NCBI GenBank assembly: GCA_018222865.1
Contig: JAAEZM010000004.1
Span: forward strand, 172,460 to 236,459
Origin: Alphaproteobacteria bacterium
GTDB lineage: Bacteria; Pseudomonadota; Alphaproteobacteria; Caulobacterales; Maricaulaceae
Direction of reading: 5' to 3'
Length of the DNA: 64,000 bases
Shown here: in pieces, positions 27,872-39,896 of the stretch
Position numbering within the stretch: position 1 is the first letter of the stretch
Layout: each line of letters begins with the position of its first letter
Position numbers and translations under genes: made by a program
Notes under the pieces: model-generated
What the model was told of the DNA's origin: nothing
What the model saw: the letters and a program-made list of their open reading frames with translations, nothing else
The model's database searches: none

Positions 27872-28084
27872 TTCGCACCGCACCCCGGCAACATCCGGCG
27901 CGAAGCCTCTTGCGCGCGCGTGGATGTGCATACACGTACGCGCGCGAGCGTTATTAGGCAAAACAATAATTTTGCTCACCCGCGTCATCCGGGGTGAACA
28001 AAAACACGATTATTGCAAAATTATCCTTGCAATCCTTGTGGAGACGCGTAACGCTGCACTGCAACAGAGTTAAGGAGGGTTCCA
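27872..28084 (+). promoter_or_regulatory. Upstream region of the ilv-leu operon with stacked inverted repeats
   Basis: Four symmetric elements occur before the leader peptide. They are an imperfect 32-base palindrome with GCGCGCGT/ACGCGCGC ends (27914-27945), GCAAAA-n6-TTTTGC (27958-27975), the hairpin TCACCC...GGGTGA (27976-27997), and ATTGCAA-n8-TTGCAAT (28012-28033). The first or third may terminate the CoA-transferase transcript. The AT-rich last one is positioned like an operator or activator site for the amino acid operon. I cannot identify the -10/-35 pair with certainty. Confidence 0.45.
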
Positions 28085-28231
28085 ATGGACCCGCGTAGGC
28101 AAATCGCTAGAGCGAAGACCACCGCCGCCCCTTCGGGCGAGCGGTCGACTAGCCTCGGCCTCCTCCTTGTACTCGTACTTGTGATTATTACCGCCCAAAT
28201 AATGGGAGCGGCGCTCACGCCTGCCATCTAG
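28085..28231 (+). CDS. Branched-chain amino acid leader peptide (ilv-leu attenuator)
   Basis: A 48-residue open frame with an excellent ribosome site (AAGGAGGG, 5 bases before the ATG). Codons 24-35 read [12 protein letters not shown]: eleven of twelve are Leu, Val or Ile. This is the classic design of the leader peptides of ilv and leu operons, where ribosome stalling reports low charged tRNA. The frame ends 23 bases before an intrinsic terminator and 80 bases before ilvD. The Arg/Lys-rich first half contains a potential 10 bp RNA hairpin (28121-28145). It is too short and too skewed to be an ordinary protein, and a regulatory role is the best reading. Confidence 0.88.
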
Positions 28232-28287
28232 GACACACCAGAGAGGCAGACCTGAAAAACCCCGCTCCCAACCGGAGCGGGGTTTTT
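28204..28287 (+). promoter_or_regulatory. Attenuator: antiterminator element and terminator before ilvD
   Basis: The terminator is AAAAACCCCGCTCC, a 5-base loop, then GGAGCGGGGTTTTT (28255-28287): a 9 bp GC stem extended by A/T pairs and a T run. GGGAGCGG at 28204-28211, in the last codons of the leader peptide, is perfectly complementary to CCGCTCCC at 28262-28269, the 5' arm and first loop base of the terminator. Stalling at the Leu/Val/Ile codons would free 28204-28211 to pair and prevent termination. A local GAGC-ggc-GCTC hairpin (28206-28216) could hold the same element when the ribosome moves on. Confidence 0.85.
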
Positions 28288-28311
28288 CGTTTTGGCCGCA
28301 CAGGACGAAAA

Positions 28312-30030
28312 ATGACCCACACACCGCGCAAAAACTCAGACGCCATTACAGCAGGACCAGCTCGTGCTCCCGCTCGCGCCATGCTGCGTGCAACGGGGAT
28401 GCAGGATTCCGATTTCGACAAGCCGATGATCGGGGTCATCAACACCTGGACCACAGTGACGCCGTGCAACATGCATCTCGACCGCCTCGCAGAACCGGTG
28501 CGTGAAGGTGTGCGCGAAGGCGGCGGTCATCCGGTTGATTTCAACACAATCGTTGTCTCCGATGGCATCTCCATGGGCACGCAGGGCATGCGCGCATCGC
28601 TGATCTCGCGAGAGGTTATCGCTGACAGTATCGAGCTGGCTGTTCGCGGGCACTCTCTGGACGGGGTGGTTATCCTGGTCGGCTGTGACAAGACCATACC
28701 GGCCGCAGCCATGGCCCTGGTCCGCATGGATATCCCAGGCTGCATCCTCTATGGCGGCACGATCATGCCCGGCCGCAAGGGCGATCAGGACCTGTCCATC
28801 CAGGACGTATTCGAGGCTGTCGGCGCCCATGCTTGTGGCGCTATGGACGACAAGACCTTGGCCGAGGTCGAGAAGGCGGCCTGTCCGGGCGAAGGCGCTT
28901 GTGGCGGACAGTTTACCGCCAACACCATGGCCATGATCCTGTCCATGCTGGGTCTTTCCCCCATGGGCTTGAACGATATTCCGGCTCCCCACCCGGATAA
29001 AACCGAGGCGGCGCGCGCTTGCGGCCGCCTCACCATGTCACTGGTCGAAGCTGGCAGCTCGCCGCGCCGCTTCATTTCCCCCCCAAGCTTGAAGAACGCT
29101 GCGATCGCAGCTTCGGCCAGTGGCGGCTCCACCAATGCTATCCTGCACCTGGCCGCCATTGCTGCCGAGGCAGGTGTGCCGTTTTCCATCGATATCTTTG
29201 ACGAGGTATCGGCAAGCGCGCCAGTCATCACGGATCTCAAGCCAGGTGGCCGTTTTCTGGCGCATCATATGTTCCTGGCTGGCGGCACCCGCGTTTTCGG
29301 CAAGAAGCTGATGGAGGCGGGCCGTATCGCGGATACGCCAACCGTCACAGGCAAATCCCTGTTTGAGGAATTCGCTGAGGCTGAGGAAGCGCCCAATCAG
29401 CGCGTCATCTATTCGGTGGACAATCCTGTGAAGCCAGATGGCGGTTTCCGAGTGCTCTATGGCGATCTCGCGCCGGAAGGCGGCGTGCTGAAGCTGTCGG
29501 GCCATTCTCGCAGCGAGTTTGAAGGCACAGCGCGTGTTTTCGAATGCGAGGAAGATGCCTTTCAGGCGGTCGAGTCCAATCAGATCAAGGCCGGTGACGT
29601 CGTCATCATCCGCTGCGAAGGCCCGCAGGGTGGGCCAGGCATGCGGGAAATGCTCGGCGTTACCGCAGCCTTGGTCGGCCAGGGTTTGAGCGAGGATGTC
29701 GCCTTGATCACCGACGGCCGTTTCTCTGGCGCCTCAAAAGGCTTCGTTATCGGTCACGTCTCGCCGGAGGCAACTGCCGGTGGACCGATCGGACTGATCC
29801 GAGAAGGCGACACGATCCGCATTAATGTCTCCGATCGCCGCATCGATATCGATGCTGACCTGGACGCCCGCCGAGAAGGCTGGACGCCCCCGGCGCCCAA
29901 TCAGATGGGCGGCGTCTTCGACAAGTTTTCACGCCTGGTCAGCTCCGCCTCCAAAGGCGCAACCACCAGCCAGGCCCCCGCACCTCAGCAATCAAGCCAA
30001 CCCGCTTCCGACCAGGAGATCTTTGCATGA
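28312..30030 (+). CDS. ilvD: Dihydroxy-acid dehydratase
   Basis: Iron-sulfur dehydratase for the third common step of valine and isoleucine synthesis. The 572 residues include the cluster-ligand cysteines in [16 protein letters not shown] and [16 protein letters not shown]. The C-terminal domain carries [12 protein letters not shown] and the conserved [20 protein letters not shown]. The ATG at 28312 has AGGA 6 bases upstream and comes 24 bases after the attenuator terminator. The last 30 residues are a Ser/Gln/Pro-rich tail. It is the first structural gene of the nine-gene operon; ilvC overlaps by ATGA. Confidence 0.97.
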
Positions 30031-31055
30031 CCCGCCCATCACAAGCGCCGGCGAAACGCCGCGCCGACTTCGAAGTCGACACTTCCGCCTTCAAGGCCGA
30101 GACCATCGCCGTGATCGGCTATGGCAGCCAAGGTCGCGCCCACGCCATGAACCTCAAGGAAAGCGGCTGCAATGTCGTGGTGGGTGTCCGTGCAGGCGGT
30201 CAAGGCGCCAAGCGCGCCGCAGAGGACGGGCTGCGGACGGCGGAACCGGCAGCGGCGGCGAAAGAAGCCGATATCGTGATGATCCTCACCCCGGATATGA
30301 GCCATGAGGAGATTTTCCGCGAGCAAATCAAGGACCAGCTCGAACCCGGCAATGCTGTGATGTTCGCGCATGGTTTCTCTGTCCACTTCGGACGTGTCGC
30401 TCCGGCGAAGGATGTCGATGTCATGCTGGTCGCGCCCAAGGGCCCTGGCGACCTGGTCCGCCGGGAGTATGAGCGCGGGCGCGGCGTGCCATGCCTTTTC
30501 GCCGTCCATCAGGACGCAACCGGCAGAGCCCGCGAGCGCGCCCTCGCCTACACCGCTTGTATCGGGGGGGCGAATTCTGGCGTCATCGAAACCTCGTTCG
30601 CGGAAGAGACCGAGACTGATCTGTTCGGCGAGCAAGCCGTTCTGTGCGGCGGCGCGACCGAGCTGGTTCTGGCCGGATATGAAACCCTGACCGAAGCCGG
30701 CTATCAGCCCGAAGTCGCCTATTTCGAATGCCTGCATGAGCTCAAGCTGATCGTTGATCTGCTCTATGAGGGCGGGCTGGAGAAGATGCATGAATTCATC
30801 TCCGAAACCGCAATCTATGGCGATTTGCGCTCCGGCCCGCGCGTCATCAATGACGAAACCCGAGCCCGTATGCGCGAGGTCCTGAAGGATATTCAGGATG
30901 GCACCTTCGCCCGTGACTGGATCACTGAAAACCAGGCCGGAAAGCCGCAATACACCGCTTTGCTGCGCAAGGATCTCGACCATCCAATCGAGAAAACCGG
31001 CGCCCAGCTGCGCGCGGACATGCCCTGGCTCCAACCCGGCGCCAACGCGCACTGA
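30027..31055 (+). CDS. ilvC: Ketol-acid reductoisomerase (class I)
   Basis: Isomerises and reduces acetolactate or acetohydroxybutyrate with NADPH and magnesium. The 342 residues fit the short class I enzyme. The nucleotide-binding loop is [17 protein letters not shown], the active-site acidic set lies in [16 protein letters not shown], and the helical domain includes [19 protein letters not shown]. Translation is coupled to ilvD through the ATGA overlap, and ilvB starts 23 bases after its stop. Confidence 0.97.
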
Positions 31056-31078: not shown

Positions 31079-32779
31079 ATGACCGCCCTTCCCATCACCC
31101 TGCCCGAAGCAGAAACCCAGCAGCGCACCACCGGTGCGCATTGGGTCGTTCGGACGTTGGAAGAGCTCGGCGTACACCGGATCTTCGGCTATCCGGGGGG
31201 CGCGATTATGCCCGTCTATGATGCGCTGGTCGGCTCCAAACTGGAACACATTCTGGTCCGCCATGAACAGGCCGCGAGTTTCGCGGCCGATGCCCAGGCA
31301 CGCCTGTCCGGCAAGGCCGGGGTCTGCTTGGCGACCTCCGGACCGGGCGCCACCAACCTCCTGACCGGGATCGCCAATGCCTATATGGACAGCGTTCCCA
31401 TGGTTGTGCTGACCGGTCAGGTCCCAACAGGCCTGATGGGGACAGACGCCTTCCAGGAAGTCGACGTCTTCGGCATGAGCCTGCCCGTCGTCAAACACTC
31501 CATCATCGTCCGCGAACCGGAGGAGATTCCCGCCCGCATCCGCGAAGCCTTTGCGATCGCAGAAAGCGGGCGCCCCGGTCCCGTCCTTGTGGATCTGCCC
31601 AAGGACACGCTTCAGGCAGAGGTTGGACAACCTTACCCCCCTCAATCTCTGCCTGCAGCAAAGCCGTCGCCAGCGTCCAGCTCCGAGATTGATGCGGCGA
31701 CGGCTTTGCTGGCCTGCGCGAAACGACCCGTCTTCTACATGGGTGGCGGAATTGGTCTGGGCGGTGCCGTCGAAGCGGCGCGTGACTTCATGGCGCGGAC
31801 GGGTATTCCCGCGGTCTCGACGCTCAAGGCCATGGGCTGCGCTCATCCCGATGCGAAGAACTATCTGGGCATGTTGGGCATGCACGGCACCCGCGCCGCG
31901 AATATGGCGGTTCAAGACAGCGATCTTCTGATCTGTTGCGGCGCTCGTTTTGATGACCGTGCCACGGGCAAGCCGGATAGTTTTGCCCCGGATGCCCGCA
32001 TCATCCACATGGATTTGGATGCGGCGGAGATCGGCAAGCTGCGCAATGTGGACGCAGGAATTGCTGGCGACCTTGCTGACGCTCTGGCGCGTTTGGATCC
32101 GGGCTATCTCGACATTGATCCGTGGCGGCAGGTGTGTTCCCAGCGAAAAACAGAGTTCGCCTTTCGCTATGATGACGCGCCGGGCTCGGGGATTTTTGCG
32201 CCGGCCTTGCTGAAACAGCTTTCAGAAGCCGCCGGAGATGATTTCATTGCAGCCTGTGATGTTGGCCAACACCAGATGTGGGTGGCCCAGCATTGCCGCT
32301 TTTCCCGCCCGGAACACCATTTGACCAGCGCTGGCCTGGGGGCCATGGGCTATGGCTTGCCGGCCGGCATTGGTGCCGCGATGGAGCGTCCAGATGCACA
32401 AGTCATCACCGTAACCGGCGATGGCTCGATCATGATGAATATCCAAGAGCTGGCCACCGCGCGCCGCTATAGCGTGCCGGTAAAAATCCTGTTGCTGGAT
32501 AATTCCTCCCTGGGCCTGGTGCGTCAGTGGCAGGAATATTTCTTCGATCAGAATTTCTCCGAGATCGATCTCTACGACAATCCCGATTTCGCTGAAGTAG
32601 CCCGCTCCTTTGGCGTTGAAGCTTTCACCATCCATTCCCGTGCGGAAGTGCCCGCAGCGATTGACCGCCTGTTGTCGGCGACCGGTCCAATCCTGGCGCA
32701 CTGCCTGATCGATCCGCGCGAGAACGTCTGGCCGCTTGTGCCGCCAGGCAAATCCAATGCCGACATGATGGAGGACTAG
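31079..32779 (+). CDS. ilvB: Acetolactate synthase, large (catalytic) subunit
   Basis: Thiamine-diphosphate and FAD-dependent enzyme making acetolactate and acetohydroxybutyrate. The product is 566 residues. The N-terminal domain has FGYPGGAIMPVYDAL and the catalytic Glu in VRHEQAASFAADAQAR. The C-terminal ThDP motif is GDGSIMMNIQELATA, closing with NN-like NSSLGLVRQWQEYFF. The stop TAG is immediately followed by the ATG of the small subunit, consistent with stoichiometric synthesis. It could equally be called ilvG or ilvI by convention; sequence does not decide. Confidence 0.96.
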   Translation: MTALPITLPEAETQQRTTGAHWVVRTLEELGVHRIFGYPGGAIMPVYDALVGSKLEHILVRHEQAASFAADAQARLSGKAGVCLATSGPGATNLLTGIANAYMDSVPMVVLTGQVPTGLMGTDAFQEVDVFGMSLPVVKHSIIVREPEEIPARIREAFAIAESGRPGPVLVDLPKDTLQAEVGQPYPPQSLPAAKPSPASSSEIDAATALLACAKRPVFYMGGGIGLGGAVEAARDFMARTGIPAVSTLKAMGCAHPDAKNYLGMLGMHGTRAANMAVQDSDLLICCGARFDDRATGKPDSFAPDARIIHMDLDAAEIGKLRNVDAGIAGDLADALARLDPGYLDIDPWRQVCSQRKTEFAFRYDDAPGSGIFAPALLKQLSEAAGDDFIAACDVGQHQMWVAQHCRFSRPEHHLTSAGLGAMGYGLPAGIGAAMERPDAQVITVTGDGSIMMNIQELATARRYSVPVKILLLDNSSLGLVRQWQEYFFDQNFSEIDLYDNPDFAEVARSFGVEAFTIHSRAEVPAAIDRLLSATGPILAHCLIDPRENVWPLVPPGKSNADMMED

Positions 32780-33076
32780 ATGAGCCACACCTTGAACATT
32801 CGGATCGCCGACCGTGAAGGCGCCCTGGTGCGTCTTATCGGTCTTGTGGAACGCCGCGGCTATGAAATCTGCGCCATGGATAAATCTGCCGGTGATGCAG
32901 GCATTGCAGACATCACCATGCAAATCGCGCCTCGCGGCGGCGAACGCCGGATTGATGTCCTGATGCGCCAGGTCGCCCGGCTCTTCGACGTCCACGCCAT
33001 CCGGCAAGGCATGCCGGCCCACATCGCTGCCGGCACAGCCCGACCAGGAGGCTTCCAATGTCGACATCCTCAGTAG
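32780..33076 (+). CDS. ilvM: Acetolactate synthase, short regulatory subunit (IlvM type)
   Basis: A 98-residue protein with one ACT domain (TLNIRIADREGALVRLIGLV, then the DKSAGDAGIADITMQI strand). It is far shorter than the roughly 160-residue IlvH/IlvN subunits usual in Alphaproteobacteria and matches the IlvM length, lacking the C-terminal domain. IlvM subunits typically give little or no valine feedback inhibition, so control here may rest on the attenuator; that is inference. The ATG directly follows the ilvB stop, and its 3' end overlaps leuA by 19 bases. Confidence 0.88.
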   Translation: MSHTLNIRIADREGALVRLIGLVERRGYEICAMDKSAGDAGIADITMQIAPRGGERRIDVLMRQVARLFDVHAIRQGMPAHIAAGTARPGGFQCRHPQ

Positions 33077-34638
33077 AGCCAAGCCCCCACGATCGCGTCC
33101 GCATATTCGACACGACGCTGCGTGATGGCGAACAAGCGCCGGGCTTCTCGATGACGCCCGAGCAGAAGATCGAACTCGCCCATCTGCTTGCGAGCCTGAA
33201 GGTCGATGTCATTGAAGCCGGGTTTGCCGCTGCATCACCTGGTGACAGTGCAGCCATACGGCGTATCGCGTCAGAGATTAATGGTCCGACCCTCTGCTCG
33301 CTCGCCCGCACAACGCTTTCCGATATCGATGCCGCCGCAGAAGCGCTCGCGCCTGCGCGACATCGCCGTCTCCATATCTTCCTGGCCACCAGCCCCATCC
33401 ACCGCGAAGCGAAGCTGCGGATGTCGCGACTGGAAGTGCTCAAGGCGATTGAGACCGCTTTGACCCATGCGCGCGGCACATTCGATGAGATCGAATTCTC
33501 CGCGGAGGATGCCCTGCGCACTGAGGAAGACTTCCTGGTGGAGGCCATGAGCTGCGCAGCCGCATTTGGAGCCGATGTGCTCAATGTGCCCGACACGGTC
33601 GGTGTCAGCGAACCCGGGGAAATCCGGCGCATTTTCGAAATGCTCTGTGAGCAGGTCGATCGGCCGGATCATGTCGTCTTCTCTGCGCATTGTCACAATG
33701 ATCTGGGTCTGGCTGTCTCGAACAGTCTTGCCGCGGTTCAGGGCGGCGCCCGACAGATCGAATGCGCCATAAACGGGATTGGTGAAAGGGCAGGCAATTG
33801 CTCTTTGGAAGAAGTCGTCATGGCGTTGAATGTGCGCCCCGACATCTATCCCGCCGCGTCCAGCGTCGATACGACCCAACTCTGGGCAACCAGCCAGAAA
33901 CTCATGCGTTTGACGGGAACAACCCTGGCGCCCAACAAGGCGATTGTCGGAAAAAATGCCTTTGCTCATGAAGCCGGTATTCATCAGCACGGCATGATTG
34001 CTGACCGGCGCACCTATGAAATCATGACACCGGAAAGCGTTGGCGCGCCCGGCACCGCATTGGTGCTTGGCAAGCATTCCGGCAAGCACGCGCTCAATCA
34101 ACGTTTGGCACAGCTGGGCTATCAACCGGATCCGGAACGCCTGGACGACGTCTTCAAGGCGTTCAAAGCGCTTGCCGATGCCCATGGGGAAGTCATGGAT
34201 GCGGATCTTGTGGCCATTATGGAGGGCTACTCCCCCAGCGGCTCGGTCTGGACTGTCTTGCGGACAGAATTGCGGACGACTGCAGGGCCTCAGCCCAAGC
34301 AGTTTGCGCGCGTAGAGCTTTCCCACCCCGAGCGTGGTCGCGTATCCGACATTGCCTCCGGTGAAGGTCCGGTGGCGGCTGCCTTCGCCGCGGTCCAAAC
34401 CATAACCGGCATGAAGGCTGATATCATCTCATTGGAAACACGGATGATCCGTGCGCGCGAAGGCCGTGAGTTCCTCGCCGAGATCGAGGTCGAACTAGAC
34501 GGAGACCGCGTCCGGGGCCGGGCGCGCGGCCCCGACATCGTCACCGCAGCCATAGACTCTCTGCTCTTCGCTTTCGAGCGTCACCAACCCTATCACCGCC
34601 AACCGGCGGAGACGGCCATGCATGCGGCCGCGAGTTAA
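33058..34638 (+). CDS. leuA: 2-isopropylmalate synthase
   Basis: Condenses acetyl-CoA with 2-ketoisovalerate, committing carbon to leucine. The 526 residues begin with the HMGL-like catalytic motif RIFDTTLRDGEQAPGFSM; SAHCHNDLGLAVSNSLAA and GNCSLEEVVMAL follow. HEAGIHQHGM lies before the linker, and the C-terminal LeuA allosteric domain (about 400-505) is present, so leucine feedback is expected. The start overlaps ilvM by 19 bases, and ilvE follows after 11 bases. Confidence 0.96.
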   Translation: MSTSSVEPSPHDRVRIFDTTLRDGEQAPGFSMTPEQKIELAHLLASLKVDVIEAGFAAASPGDSAAIRRIASEINGPTLCSLARTTLSDIDAAAEALAPARHRRLHIFLATSPIHREAKLRMSRLEVLKAIETALTHARGTFDEIEFSAEDALRTEEDFLVEAMSCAAAFGADVLNVPDTVGVSEPGEIRRIFEMLCEQVDRPDHVVFSAHCHNDLGLAVSNSLAAVQGGARQIECAINGIGERAGNCSLEEVVMALNVRPDIYPAASSVDTTQLWATSQKLMRLTGTTLAPNKAIVGKNAFAHEAGIHQHGMIADRRTYEIMTPESVGAPGTALVLGKHSGKHALNQRLAQLGYQPDPERLDDVFKAFKALADAHGEVMDADLVAIMEGYSPSGSVWTVLRTELRTTAGPQPKQFARVELSHPERGRVSDIASGEGPVAAAFAAVQTITGMKADIISLETRMIRAREGREFLAEIEVELDGDRVRGRARGPDIVTAAIDSLLFAFERHQPYHRQPAETAMHAAAS

Positions 34639-34649
34639 GGAATATAACC

Positions 34650-35606
34650 ATGTCCATCCAGGAAACCGACTTCATCTGGCGCAATGGCGAGCTCATCGAC
34701 TGGCATGAGGCGCAAACCCATGTTCTGAGCCATGCTCTTCACTACGGAACCTCTGTCTTTGAAGGTATCCGGGCCTATCAAACACCGTCAGGGCCTCAGA
34801 TTTTCCGCTTGAAGGAGCATGTACGCCGCCTCTTCGACAGTGCGAAAGTCTATCACATGCCCCTCCCCCATACACAGGAGGAGCTGGAGGAAGCCTGTCG
34901 CCATGTCGTTCGCTCGAACCGGCTCAATGATGCCTATATTCGGCCCATCGCCTTCTTCGGATACGGCGGAATCGGCGTACTCCCGGGCGAGGCCTCAAAA
35001 GTCGATATCGCTATCGCCGCCTTCCCCTGGGGGGCTTATCTGGGCGAAGACGCTCTGGCCAAGGGCGTGAATTGCTGCATCTCCAGCTGGAACCGTCCGG
35101 CGCCCAACACCATTCCGACCGGGGCCAAGGCTGGCGGCAATTATTTGTCATCCGTCCTGATCTCTCACGAAGCCCATTCGCGCGGCTATGACGAGGGTAT
35201 CGGGCTGGATGTGAATGGCCTGGTTTCAGAAGGTGCGGGTGAGAACATCTTCGTCATCTCCGACGGGGTTATCCGCACCCCTCCAAGCTCCGCCTCCATC
35301 CTCTCGGGCCTGACCCGCGATGCGGTTATCAAGCTTGCTGAAGCTGAAGGCTTTGATGTTCGTGAGCAGACCCTGTCTCGCGAGAGCCTGTATGTCGCTG
35401 ACGAGATCTTCTTCACCGGCACGGCCGCAGAAATCACCCCGGTTCGCTCAGTCGACGATCATGTCGTACGCGCTGGCGGACGCGGACCTATCACCGAATT
35501 GATGCAGAAGCGCTTCTTTGGACTGTTCAGCGGAGAAACCGAGGATCGCTGGAACTGGCTGACACCGGTTCATGATGACGCGATGGAGGTGCAGCATGTC
35601 GCGTAG
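34650..35606 (+). CDS. ilvE: Branched-chain amino acid aminotransferase
   Basis: PLP-dependent class IV aminotransferase performing the last step for Val, Leu and Ile. The 318 residues include [18 protein letters not shown] near the start, the PLP lysine in [12 protein letters not shown], and [19 protein letters not shown]. The ATG at 34650 follows a weak AAGGA. Its 3' end overlaps the leuC start by 11 bases, and the leuC ribosome site (GGAGGT) lies inside it. Confidence 0.96.
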
Positions 35607-37005
35607 CCTGTTCGAGAAGGTCTGGGATGAGCACCAGGTCTGCGCCGAAACAGACGACACGCCCGCCATCCTCTATATTGATCTTCACCTTGTACACGAG
35701 GTCACCTCACCCCAGGCGTTTTCGGCCTTGGATGCGAAAGGCCTGAAGGTACGGCGCCCGGACCGGACGCTGGCGACGATCGATCATTCGACGCCGACAC
35801 TGCCCTTCCACAAGGGGATGTCGCCGCCCTATGCGAGCGATGCGAATGCGGCCCAGGTCGAGCGTCTCTACGCCAACACAGCGCATCACCGCATAGAGCT
35901 GCATGGCTGGGAAAGCCCTCATCGAGGCGTGGTGCACGTGATTGGACCCGAACTCGGCGCGACCCAGCCCGGCATGACGATTGTGTGTGGCGACAGCCAT
36001 ACAGCGACACATGGAGCTTTCGGTGCGCTGGCGTTTGGCATTGGCACAACGGAGGTTGGGCATGTCTTGGCGACACAATGCCTTTTGCAACGCAAACCCA
36101 AGTCCATGCGTATCCATGTGTCGGGTCAGCCAGGCCCCGGGGTTTCGGCCAAGGACATTATCCTCGCCATTATCGCCCGGATCGGTATCGATGGCGGGAC
36201 GGGTCATGTGATCGAATACACCGGGGAAGCCATTGAAGCACTCGACATGGAGGGCCGCATGACCCTTTGCAATATGTCGATCGAAGCCGGAGCTCGGGCG
36301 GGCCTTATTGCCCCGGACCAAACCACATTCGACTATCTCCAGGGACGCCCGCATGCTCCCTCTGGCGCTGAATGGGATGAGGCTGTGGCCCACTGGTCGG
36401 ACTTGCGATCCGATCCGGACGCCCAGTTTGACAAAATGGTCGAGATTAATATCGACGCCCTCAAACCCGTTGTGACCTGGGGTACCGCTCCGGATACCGG
36501 CATCGCCATCGACGCACAGATCCCGCCCCCCAAAACGGCGTCCGACGCCAAGGCACTCGACTATATGCAATTGCAGGCCGGCCAGGACATAGCGGGCGCC
36601 AAGGTCGATCGAGTCTTCATCGGCTCTTGCACAAATTCGCGGCTCAATGATTTGCGCGCAGCCGCAAGTGTCATGAAAGGGCGCCGCATTCCCGCAAGCG
36701 TGACCGCACTTGTCGTTCCGGGCTCGGTGATTGTGAAACGTCAGGCCGAAGACGAAGGCCTGGACAAAGTTTTCAAAGCGGCCGGCGCTGAATGGCGTGA
36801 AGCGGGCTGCTCCATGTGCATCGCGATGAACGGCGATAAGGGTGCGCCCGGCGAGCTGATCGTCTCAACCTCCAACCGGAATTTCGAAGGCCGTCAGGGC
36901 CCTGGCGTCCGCACCGTGCTGGCCAGCCCGGCTGTCGCGGCAGCGGCGGCTGTAACGGGCCAGATCACCGACCCCGCCAAGCTGAAACAGGTGGCACATG
37001 CCTGA
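35596..37005 (+). CDS. leuC: 3-isopropylmalate dehydratase, large subunit
   Basis: Aconitase-type 4Fe-4S subunit of isopropylmalate isomerase, 469 residues. The ATG at 35596 has GGAGGT 5 bases upstream and starts [15 protein letters not shown], as in other LeuC proteins; an open frame 24 bases longer is not needed. Cluster cysteines are in FIGSCTNSR and in the later [13 protein letters not shown] pair. [20 protein letters not shown] is the conserved substrate region. It overlaps leuD by 8 bases. Confidence 0.96.
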
Positions 37006-37573
37006 AACCTATCCCTTCTCCTCCCGCAGCTTCGTCCTGCATCAAGAAAACATTGATACCGATCAGATCATTCCCGCCCGTTTCCTGACAACAACCAGCC
37101 AGGCAGGGCTTGGCCGTTATGCCTTCCATGACTGGCGCTTTGATGGCAATGGCATGCCTAGGAATGACAATCCACTTTCCGGTTGCGATCCGCATACGAC
37201 TTCGATTTTGGTCACCGGCCGCAATTTCGGGTGTGGATCATCGCGGGAACATGCCCCTTGGGCGCTTTTGGACTTTGGTTTCCGGGCTGTGATTTCCAAC
37301 GAGATCGCCGATATTTTTCACTCCAATGCGGCCAAGAATGGCCTCTTACCGATCATTGCCCCGCAAAGTGCTCACGCTTGGCTGATGGAGCATCCGGGAG
37401 CAGGCATCCATATCGATCTTGAAAGCCAAACCGTTGAAATTGATGGCTTCGACAGCTTTCATTTCGATATCGAACCATTCGCGAAACACTGTCTGATTGA
37501 AAACACGGACCCACTCGGTTTTCTCATCAGCAAGATGGATGAGATCAAGCGATATGAGGAGGCAAGAGCATGA
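36998..37573 (+). CDS. leuD: 3-isopropylmalate dehydratase, small subunit
   Basis: Partner of LeuC, 191 residues. It carries the swivel-domain motifs [33 protein letters not shown] and [14 protein letters not shown]. Its start lies inside the last codons of leuC, and its stop overlaps the leuB ATG (ATGA), so the two isomerase subunits and the dehydrogenase are translationally coupled. Confidence 0.97.
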
Positions 37574-38661
37574 CCTATCGGATCACGCTATTGCCCGGCG
37601 ACGGGATTGGACCCGAGGTCACGCGCGTCGCCCGAGCGGCTATCGATCGCGCGGCCGAGATCAGCGGTTTCAAAGTCGCATTCACGGAGCACGCCTTTGG
37701 CGGGGCCTCGATTGACCAATATGGAGAACCGCTGACAGAAGCGACCCTGGCGGCCTGCCAGTCAGCCGACGCCATCTTCCTGGGCGCTGTCGGCGGGCCG
37801 AAATGGGATAATGCCTCGGCACGCCCGGAGGCCGGCTTGCTTGCCTTGCGCAAAGAGCTGGGTGTCTATGCCAATCTCCGTCCGGTGAGCGTCCATCCAG
37901 CGCTTTCCGACCGGTCTCCCCTGCGCCCGGAGCTTATCGAAGGCGCAGATCTTTTGATCGTGCGGGAGCTGACGGGCGGGATCTATTTTGGCGAGCGCGA
38001 GCGAGGCCCGGACTGGGCCTCGGACAAATGCACCTATTCACAAGGTGAAATCGAGCGTGTCGCCCGGATCGCCTTCGAGACAGCGCGGTTGCGCCGCGGC
38101 AAGCTCACCTCCGTGGATAAGGCGAACGTCCTGACAACGTCGAAGCTCTGGCGCGAGACCGTCACGGCCATGGGTTCGCGGGAATATCCCGATATCAGCC
38201 TGGACCACATGTATGTCGACGCTGCAGCCATGCATCTCATACGCGCGCCCCGCGATTTCGATGTGGTTCTGACAGAGAATATGTTCGGCGATATCCTGAG
38301 CGATGAAGCTTCCATGCTGCCCGGTTCCATTGGTCTTCTGGGATCAGCCTCTCTTGGCGATGAGCGCCCCGGACTGTTCGAGCCCATCCATGGCTCCGCC
38401 CCGGACATCGCCGGGCAGGACAAGGCCAATCCGTTCGGAGCAATAGAAAGCGCCGCCCAATTGCTTGAAAGCGGGCTGGGCGAAGCAAAAGCAGCACAAC
38501 ATCTCCGCGACGCCGTTGCCCAAATGCATGAAGCGAGAGAATGGACAGCTGACCTGGGTGGCGCGCTGACATGTTCACAAGCCGGCATTAAACTGCTGGA
38601 ACGCCTCGATCAGCTTCCAACCGATCAGGTGACGCCATCAGTGAAAGCGGTCGCGAGCTAA
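37570..38661 (+). CDS. leuB: 3-isopropylmalate dehydrogenase
   Basis: NAD-dependent oxidative decarboxylase giving 2-ketoisocaproate, the leucine precursor. The 363 residues include LLPGDGIGPEVTRVA, VRELTGGIYFGERERG, SVDKANVL and the metal-binding segment TENMFGDILSDEASMLPGSI, all intact. It is the last gene of the operon; acetate kinase converges from the other strand 53 bases beyond. No clear hairpin terminator is visible in the gap. Confidence 0.97.
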   Translation: MTYRITLLPGDGIGPEVTRVARAAIDRAAEISGFKVAFTEHAFGGASIDQYGEPLTEATLAACQSADAIFLGAVGGPKWDNASARPEAGLLALRKELGVYANLRPVSVHPALSDRSPLRPELIEGADLLIVRELTGGIYFGERERGPDWASDKCTYSQGEIERVARIAFETARLRRGKLTSVDKANVLTTSKLWRETVTAMGSREYPDISLDHMYVDAAAMHLIRAPRDFDVVLTENMFGDILSDEASMLPGSIGLLGSASLGDERPGLFEPIHGSAPDIAGQDKANPFGAIESAAQLLESGLGEAKAAQHLRDAVAQMHEAREWTADLGGALTCSQAGIKLLERLDQLPTDQVTPSVKAVAS

Positions 38662-38714: not shown

Positions 38715-39896
38715 TTATGTGGAGGTTTCCCTGGCGAGGCAGTTTGCCGCATGTTTAGCCAGCATTGCCTCCTCGTCTGTGCGTATTGACCACAGAGTGA
38801 CCCTTGAAGTGGGTTGAGAGATTTTCGGGCCACCCTCGGCATTCCGCTCCGGGTCGAGTTTCGCACCAAGCCATTCCAGCCCATTGGCGATTTGTGCCCG
38901 GACACTGGGAGAGTTTTCCCCAATCCCTGCCGTGAATATGACGGCATCCAGCCCACCTAATGCCGCCGCCAGAGACCCGATCTCTCGCTGACACCGATAT
39001 ACGAAATATTCGACCGCTTCTTTCGCCCGCGGCTTCTCGCTGGTTTCCAAGGCCCGCATATCACCGGTCATGCCGGACAGCCCCTTCAACCCAGATTCCT
39101 TGTGCAGCAGATGCGCAAGGTCAGCTGCGCTCATCCCCTCAACCTCCTGAAGGTAAAGCAGCACACCAGGATCAATATCGCCGCAGCGCGTCGACATGGG
39201 CAGACCGGCCAGGGCGGTGAAACCCATTGTGGTTGCCACAGATACGCCATCGCGGAGCGCACACATGGAAACCCCCGAGCCCAAATGAGCTATGATCACC
39301 CGCTCGGCGGGGTGGCCATCCATGACGGACGACATCTGACTGGCGATGAATTCATAGGAAAGCCCATGAAAGCCATAGCGTAAAACGCCCTGGTCGAAAT
39401 ATCGGTGCGGCAGCGCAAAACGTTGCGCTTTTGCGGGCTGGCTACGATGGAAGCCCGTATCAAAACAGGCGATCTGAAGCGCATCCGGCCAGCGCGCGCC
39501 AGCGTAGTCGATACCCGCCAGATTATAAGGCTCATGCAAGGGTGCGAGGGGCGTCAGCGTTTCAAGCTGGGCCCTGATGGTTTCGCTGACGATAATCGGT
39601 GCCGCATAATCCGCTCCGCCATGAACGACGCGATGCCCCACGGCGCGAAGGGTCTTGCCTGCAAGCGCCGATGTGATCACTTCGAGCAAGACGGGCCAGG
39701 CCGCATCACTATCCTTCGCATCCACGATGCGATGCTCGGATTTATCGCCAATGGTAATCGCGAGCGCCGCATCCGGACCAATAGCGCTGAGATGAAACCG
39801 CGCGAGTAATTCGCCCGCACGCTGATTTTCAAGGGCATAAAGACCGGCCTTGAGACTCGATGACCCTGCATTCAGTGTTAGAATTACATCCGTCAT
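38715..39896 (-). CDS. ackA: Acetate kinase
   Basis: Interconverts acetyl phosphate and acetate with ADP/ATP. The 393 residues open with LTLNAGSSSLKAGLYAL (phosphate-binding) and include HRVVHGG, VIIAHLGSGVSMCALRDG and the C-terminal FTAGIGENSPSVR. The ATG at 39896 has GGAGA 7 bases upstream. It is divergent from the MaoC-phosphotransacetylase fusion across a 176-base promoter region, so the Pta-AckA pair is likely co-regulated. Confidence 0.96.
   Translation of the reverse strand: MTDVILTLNAGSSSLKAGLYALENQRAGELLARFHLSAIGPDAALAITIGDKSEHRIVDAKDSDAAWPVLLEVITSALAGKTLRAVGHRVVHGGADYAAPIIVSETIRAQLETLTPLAPLHEPYNLAGIDYAGARWPDALQIACFDTGFHRSQPAKAQRFALPHRYFDQGVLRYGFHGLSYEFIASQMSSVMDGHPAERVIIAHLGSGVSMCALRDGVSVATTMGFTALAGLPMSTRCGDIDPGVLLYLQEVEGMSAADLAHLLHKESGLKGLSGMTGDMRALETSEKPRAKEAVEYFVYRCQREIGSLAAALGGLDAVIFTAGIGENSPSVRAQIANGLEWLGAKLDPERNAEGGPKISQPTSRVTLWSIRTDEEAMLAKHAANCLARETST

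Follow-up and report, generated by a model that had tools for sequence, protein, structure and literature searches.

The region in front of ilvD in the window, that is, the whole stretch of 64,000 nucleotides analysed here, raises the question of whether a short open reading frame and the hairpin behind it switch the following biosynthetic genes on and off. A preliminary description of this DNA had proposed a transcription attenuator with a leader peptide and a ready antiterminator, and folding, conservation and the parallel with E. coli ilvL all support that mechanism. We conclude that the ilv-leu operon is very probably preceded by an ilvL-type, ribosome-mediated transcription attenuator. 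It is a real, ordinary switch of a well-known kind, which a specialist would expect, and the existing understanding of how such switches work is unchanged. The analysis provides a firm call of a regulatory gene that length-based annotation would miss, and it broadens the range of ilvL-like attenuation to take in the complete ilv-leu pathway of Maricaulis and of many of the relatives examined, both alpha- and gammaproteobacterial.

A leader frame precedes nine biosynthetic genes

The leader peptide gene, identified by sequence and by conservation in Maricaulis, lies on the forward strand from the ATG at 28085 to the stop codon TAG at 28229–28231 (28085–28231, 48 codons). Its ribosome site is the Shine-Dalgarno sequence AAGGAGG at 28072–28078 on the same strand, 6 nt 5′ of the ATG. 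Eleven of the twelve codons 24–35 (28154–28189, forward strand) encode Leu, Val or Ile: codon 24 and codons 26–35 are branched-chain codons, written as CTC/CTT, GTA/GTG and ATT (6 Leu, 3 Val, 2 Ile), and codon 25 encodes Gly. The 48-codon frame, its strong ribosome site and the eleven branched-chain codons had all been named in the preliminary description, and each was found as described. Judged by sequence, the region thus has a short, conserved frame with a ribosome site and putative regulatory codons for the product of the operon, as an attenuator of this class would.

As a chance test, 420-nt tiles from other parts of 80 related loci (the best 80 of 582 IlvD relatives), both strands included, were scanned for runs of at least 8 Leu, Ile or Val codons in 12 that are preceded by a start codon and followed closely by a stop. 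Such runs occurred in 49 of 6544 tiles, and runs of at least 10 in 12 in only 5 of 6544. Mononucleotide shuffles of the upstream regions gave a run of at least 8/12 in 104 of 3270 cases; the regions upstream of ilvD themselves had one in 83 of 109 loci (the best 80 of 582 relatives plus 30 from family genomes). A family for the leader was sought in Pfam, NCBIfam and Rfam and none was found, and a search for a sigma-70-type promoter of the leader found none. The stretch from the upstream gene to the leader includes an inverted repeat at 27960–28015 (TTTTGCTCACCC / GGGTGAACAAAAA), perhaps the terminator of that gene.

The claim that nine biosynthetic genes follow was correct. On the forward strand these are ilvD (dihydroxy-acid dehydratase, the first structural gene, 28312–30030), ilvC (30027–31055), a gene for an ilvG-type acetolactate synthase large subunit (31079–32779), an ilvM-like small-subunit gene (32780–33076), leuA (33058–34638), ilvE (34650–35606), leuC (35596–37005; we chose this start, and the open reading frame list has 35572), leuD (36998–37573) and leuB (37570–38661). 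The ilv and leu assignments are from NCBIfam; the large subunit matched NF006524 (acetolactate synthase 2 catalytic subunit) at 851.9 bits with a cut-off of 738, and the 98-residue IlvM-like protein matched NF008362 at E 1e-10 and 41.4 bits, below the curated cut-off of 68. The IlvM-like frame overlaps leuA by 19 nt. Intergenic gaps are at most 23 nt and several genes overlap; the next frame after leuB (38715–39896) has the opposite orientation. Only one other relative of the acetolactate synthase large subunit was found in this genome (E 1e-20), and it is 32% identical, and the switch may therefore control the only biosynthetic form of the enzyme.

The terminator shares a segment with an alternative pairing

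An intrinsic terminator is located on the forward strand at 28255–28287, with 28260–28268 paired to 28274–28282 and A28255–28259 paired to U28283–28287. The textbook terminator claimed to follow the leader frame is therefore present, and it stands before the first structural gene, as expected of an attenuator of this class, at a distance of 24 nt. A pattern-based terminator scan gave no site at 28255–28287; our guess is that the stem runs into the U tract and so defeats the pattern.

The preliminary description had also pointed out an exact complement between the leader and the terminator, and the pairing was reproduced. GGGAGCGG at 28204–28211, its sole forward-strand occurrence in the 64-kb window, pairs with CCGCTCCC at 28262–28269 (one of five forward-strand occurrences) through 8 Watson-Crick pairs out of 8, and U28203–A28270 lengthens the helix. 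Based on folding and pair counts, we define segment 2, the 5′ arm of the antiterminator, as TGGGAGCGG (28203–28211, forward strand) and its partner, segment 3, as 28262–28270 (forward strand), of which 28262–28268 doubles as part of the terminator 5′ arm. Segment 2 falls in Met-Gly-Ala-Ala codons. The same evidence places a middle hairpin on the forward strand at 28221–28249 (28221–28225 with 28245–28249, CTGCC/GGCAG), and the leader stop codon sits inside it. Across the genus, CTGCC/GGCAG is near-invariant in sequence, beyond pairing alone. The middle hairpin may be a polymerase pause hairpin.

Folding of partial transcripts

To locate the switch point, the RNA from the ribosome front edge to the growing 3′ end was folded, and the front edge was assumed to be 13 nt beyond the first base of the A-site codon. 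When the RNA was exposed to 28272, antiterminator pairing was 1.00 without a ribosome and equally at all 12 codons tested in the range 1–36, and it was 0.04 at codon 38 and 0.00 at codons 40, 42, 45 and 49. By this computation the switch lies between codons 36 and 38, the run's final branched-chain codon being number 35. RNA extending only to 28268 gave antiterminator values of 0.61–0.87 and then of 0.07 or less. Extending the RNA to 28291 brought the terminator to 1.00 and made it the equilibrium state in every tested case. Since the finished RNA at equilibrium always favours the terminator, antitermination must be kinetic, chosen during RNA synthesis. In the model, the antiterminator and the terminator exclude each other, and the antiterminator would be exposed while the ribosome stalls and covered once it advances, as in attenuators of this class.

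The preliminary description had suggested folding 28060–28320 with and without 28150–28200 blocked. The terminator formed both with and without the block, so that the block changed nothing. When the RNA ended at 28272, the antiterminator did form, whether 28150–28200 was blocked or free; the block was again without effect. Blocking 28200–28239 instead abolished the antiterminator in the same folding test. In this model, then, the outcome depends on whether segment 2 is covered and not on the release of a protector.

In the textbook trp model, a 1:2 hairpin serves as the protector. A search by folding found no strong 1:2 protector hairpin here; codons near 36–38 paired only weakly and locally with segment 2 in the finished RNA. 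Because only this weak 1:2 pairing was seen, a two-state model with masking by the ribosome is preferred. Without any ribosome, the fold predicts read-through, that is, antitermination. All 18 Maricaulis leaders have ATA, an Ile codon, shortly 5′ of segment 2 (codon 39 in the window, 28199–28201). Segment 2 would be masked by a ribosome that paused at this codon, which therefore cannot serve antitermination in this model.

Conservation within Maricaulis

Leader DNA was detected by DNA similarity in 17 of 18 other genomes of the same genus. The one genus genome without it, G006 (90% complete), also gave no ilvD match at E 1e-50. By the same measure it was found outside the genus in 1 of 6 same-family genomes and 0 of 16 same-order genomes. 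The family match (locus L019, genome G022) is weak at the DNA level; its terminator is similar in sequence, and it lacks a branched-chain run. It was left out of all genus counts; these and the codon counts refer to 18 sequences, the window plus 17.

In the window and the 17 same-genus genomes, the run, segment 2, middle hairpin and terminator are all kept, and a frame of 43–54 codons is present in all 18 sequences compared. The N-terminal half of the leader peptide varies. In 11 close pairs, which share genomes and hence are not independent, differences at the three codon positions numbered 11, 17 and 42.

The antiterminator and middle hairpin are 97.5% paired over 17 distinct genus rows, compared with 29.8–50.2% when slid, and their covariation score was reached by 8 of 500 shuffles; a shuffle count of this kind is no probability. 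Double changes occur at two pairs, G-C to C-G in G010 and C-G to U-A in the window. The terminator pairing is 100% paired with one double change, and its score was reached by 32 of 500 shuffles. In G010, segments 2, 3 and 4 are all altered and both pairings persist. The outermost antiterminator pair is unpaired in 4 of 17 rows and the innermost pair of the middle hairpin in 2 of 17. As most pairs in the genus are invariant or changed on one side, covariation rests on few events. The comparison of relatives that the preliminary description had proposed shows, within the genus, that 17 of the 18 other genomes retain the leader frame, the codon run and the two pairings.

Distribution among ilvD loci

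We surveyed 110 ilvD loci: 80 named loci (the best 80 of 582 IlvD relatives) and 30 from family genomes, the latter read in 30 of 44 matching genomes after 59 family genomes had been searched. L100, whose contig begins inside ilvD, was dropped from the upstream scan, which left 109 loci. The run (at least 8/12) was present in 81 of 85 loci in which ilvD heads an ilvD-ilvC operon and before 0 of 16 ilvD genes that have leu genes upstream on the same strand. The four operon-head exceptions are L043 and L061, each with a 7/12 run, L081, with only 227 nt of upstream DNA, and L129. In L129 (genome G051), an 11/12 run lies at about −484 to −427 before ilvD, with other DNA between. The 16 internal-ilvD loci belong to the gammaproteobacteria Dyella, Luteibacter, Rhodanobacter, Tahibacter and Pinirhizobacter (L070, L072, L075, L077, L079, L080, L083, L085, L087, L088, L094, L096, L097, L099, L102 and L107). 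Among loci without a detected ilvC, the run was found in 2 of 8, and one further locus had no upstream DNA.

A run-terminator pair was obtained in 77 of 109 loci by pattern; the other 32 were without a run or a terminator by pattern. The segment best complementary to the terminator starts 10–17 nt after the run in 45 of the 77 and elsewhere in 32. The arm was better than 5% of mononucleotide shuffles in only 53 of 77, a result that counts against the attenuator. For the Lysobacter group (Lysobacter, Luteimonas, Arenimonas, Dokdonella and kin), 17 of 18 leaders were aligned, L105 having failed the terminator pattern. One position is C-G in 12 of these leaders, U-A in 4 and unpaired in 1. The covariation score was reached by 9 of 500 shuffles, and two of five measures, the changed-pair and pair-type counts, were not above shuffles (423 and 500 of 500).

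No covariation was found in an alignment of 29 other non-Maricaulis leaders, in which the score was reached by 471 of 500 shuffles at 87.2% paired and some rows are misaligned. This counts against the attenuator reading for those groups. The 29 rows, mostly alphaproteobacterial by title, come from 38 named non-Maricaulis loci with a leader region outside the Lysobacter group and include none of L110–L139; L092 was left out because it failed the pattern, and L033, L035, L039, L043, L044, L053, L059 and L064 were left out by hand. Several Brevundimonas leaders retain only 4–5 antiterminator pairs. L018 and L030 have an identical leader, and L053 and L138 read alike; given such repeated rows and close kin, the counts are of loci and not of independent events. 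One row of the 29, L040, is titled Bordetella, and its ilvD-ilvC operon and leader are very like those of Brevundimonas diminuta L045; it is perhaps a contig from a misbinned or misnamed metagenome-assembled genome.

These counts bear on the view that termination is constitutive, that the leader frame is there by accident and that a promoter or repressor alone would set ilv expression. A protein regulator could indeed act here, yet run, segment 2 and terminator are retained together across families, and in 45 of 77 loci the complementary segment has the 10–17 nt spacing from the run (elsewhere in 32). We consider this view very improbable.

Codon choice in the run

Codon counts cover the stretch of 17 codons that closes with the ATA preceding segment 2 and are totals for the 18 Maricaulis leaders, which are related and hence not independent. 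The 118 Leu codons comprise 65 CTC, 51 CTT and 2 CTA, with no CTG, TTG or TTA; the 44 Val codons comprise 31 GTA, 11 GTG and 2 GTC, with no GTT. In 16 genes of the window, CTG makes up 40% of 460 Leu codons, and GTC and GTA make up 47% and 9% of 373 Val codons, so the run avoids CTG and GTC, the commonest Leu and Val codons of these genes.

Leaders of the Parvularcula, Brevundimonas and Lysobacter groups also lean to CTT, GTA and ATT; this cross-group count covers 83 leaders with at least 8/12, and five Nitrospirales/Nitrospira loci had been left out beforehand. In the Lysobacter group, compared with its own ilvD genes, CTT accounts for 29 of 79 versus 1%, ATT for 24 of 30 versus 8% and GTA for 19 of 57 versus 1%, and most of the Val codons are GTC (34 of 57). 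The 22 leaders of the wider family outside the genus show a weak lean for Leu and Val (CTG 24 of 102 versus 33%), and GTG is their commonest Val codon.

The genome has one typed tRNA-Leu gene each for GAG, CAG, TAG, CAA and TAA and one typed tRNA-Val gene each for TAC, GAC and CAC, besides one contig-edge tRNA of unassigned type. CTC and CTT are read by the GAG tRNA and GTA and GTG by the UAC tRNA, and the CAC tRNA may read GTG too. In the genus, CTC and CTT account for 116 of the 118 Leu codons, and GTA and GTG for 42 of the 44 Val codons. On this basis it is conceivable, though we hold it only tentatively, that the leader senses single tRNA isoacceptors rather than amino acids and that one codon-tuned attenuator moved with an ilv-leu operon between the alpha and gamma classes. 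A structural reason for the codon choice, instead of tRNA sensing, is possible. According to the charging theory as set out in PMC1183508, codon choice sets sensitivity, and the model study outlined in PMC3783181 places leuL foremost, with ilvL similar, among E. coli leaders very sensitive to tRNA supply. The codon bias is the one point worth following. With it, theories of isoacceptor-selective charging can be tested by comparing many leaders.

Codon choice also bears on the idea that the leader is a genuine gene for a small membrane protein, with the run as its transmembrane helix, the terminator ending its gene and ilvD having its own promoter. The run is hydrophobic enough for a membrane helix, the close pairs differ chiefly at third codon positions, and the sole Pfam entry listed at E up to 10 is PsbL (E 0.27, 11.7 bits, cut-off 33). 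However, a run composed nearly entirely of Leu, Val and Ile with so extreme a codon choice (0 of 118 Leu codons CTG), a variable N-terminal half, and a segment just behind the run that is complementary to the terminator all speak against such a protein. NCBIfam gave no match at E 0.001, and the run stands before 81 of 85 operon-head ilvD genes and 0 of 16 internal ones (in the best 80 of 582 relatives plus the 30 family loci). We therefore regard a membrane protein as a highly unlikely explanation.

Proposed mechanism

Purely translational control, in which a stalled leader ribosome would free the ilvD start with termination unchanged, is hardly credible: the leader stop is 80 nt from the ilvD start, but the two are separated by a complete intrinsic terminator, U run included, and neither terminator arm covers the ilvD start at 28312.

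In the attenuator, transcription would begin at a putative promoter upstream of the leader, and a ribosome would translate the 48-codon leader close behind RNA polymerase, the two being presumably coupled. If charged Leu, Val or Ile tRNA, the likely signals, were short, the ribosome would wait in codons 24–35 and its front edge would stay short of base 28203. Segment 2 (28203–28211) could then pair with segment 3 (28262–28270) around the middle hairpin, and with this antiterminator formed, the polymerase would continue into ilvD and the eight genes behind it. If all three amino acids were plentiful, the ribosome would run over segment 2, segment 3 would be left for its terminator partner, and the terminator would form and stop transcription near 28287. 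Most likely, the nine genes are thus switched on when leucine, valine or isoleucine is scarce.

Relation to known attenuators

E. coli ilvL (MG1655, NC_000913.3, 3950322–3950420) was refolded likewise, by minimum free energy only. Its run at codons 15–20 ends in VVVIII, its switch falls between codons 18 and 20, and its segment 2 is GTGCGGGG (L181, 1388–1395), in the Pro-Cys-Gly-Ala codons after the run. The window has a similar masking point and the same layout as ilvL, with segment 2 after the run, a middle hairpin that contains the stop codon, and a terminator arm that is segment 3, and it would work in the way ilvL does. Both operons also carry an ilvG-type acetolactate synthase, ilvG of MG1655 being marked as a pseudogene. 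The leader of the window is longer (48 versus 32 residues), as is the spacing from run to segment 2 (13 versus 5 nt), and unlike E. coli ilvXGMEDA, the operon of the window has ilvC, leuA, leuC, leuD and leuB and no ilvA.

Pfam PF08046 (IlvGEDA_leader) matches E. coli ilvL at 4.2e-17 and gave no match at E up to 10 to the leader of the window, to that of one other Maricaulis or to two Lysobacter-group leaders. Similarly, Rfam RF02744 (Rev39_5p_UTR) scores 143.6 bits against the E. coli ilvL region, with a cut-off of 88, and did not match the window at E up to 5. BLASTP of the leader against the E. coli ilvL peptide gave E 11 over 12 residues sharing GAAL, which is not significant. Thr_leader (RF00506) reached 33.2 bits over 28235–28291, covering the terminator and preceding bases, which is below its gathering score of 55. 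The enteric leu leader has Leu codons and a terminator-antiterminator; its family, Leu_leader (RF00512), gave only 21.2 bits, on the opposite strand, with a gathering score of 50.

No publication on this leader in Maricaulis was found among the hits listed by a weak search, most subscription journals being outside its coverage. Leader attenuation of Caulobacter crescentus ilvBN/ilvIH (Tarleton 1994, as described in PMC4117421), and an alphaproteobacterial ilvB leader peptide with the Sinorhizobium ilvIH element (Vitreschak 2004, via PMC1273637 and PMC2573895), are known from these secondary accounts. As there described, they resemble the window in leader-peptide attenuation of a branched-chain operon and differ from it in preceding ilvBN/ilvIH; the likeness is by description.

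The preliminary description had regarded attenuation over a whole nine-gene operon as unusual. This was not borne out, as large attenuated operons are common among the relatives examined. In 44 of the 80 named loci (the best 80 of 582), the full set ilvC, ilvB, leuA, leuC, leuD and leuB follows ilvD on the same strand, and the leader run is present in 41 of these 44, the others being L043 and L061 (7/12 each) and L100. A published example is Staphylococcus aureus ilvDBNCleuABCDilvA with a Leu-rich attenuator peptide (PMC5794164). As presented there, that operon is like the one in the window in having ilvD first, a leader-peptide attenuator and nine genes, counted from its name, and it differs in having Leu as the signal, CodY as a second control, and another phylum and gene order.
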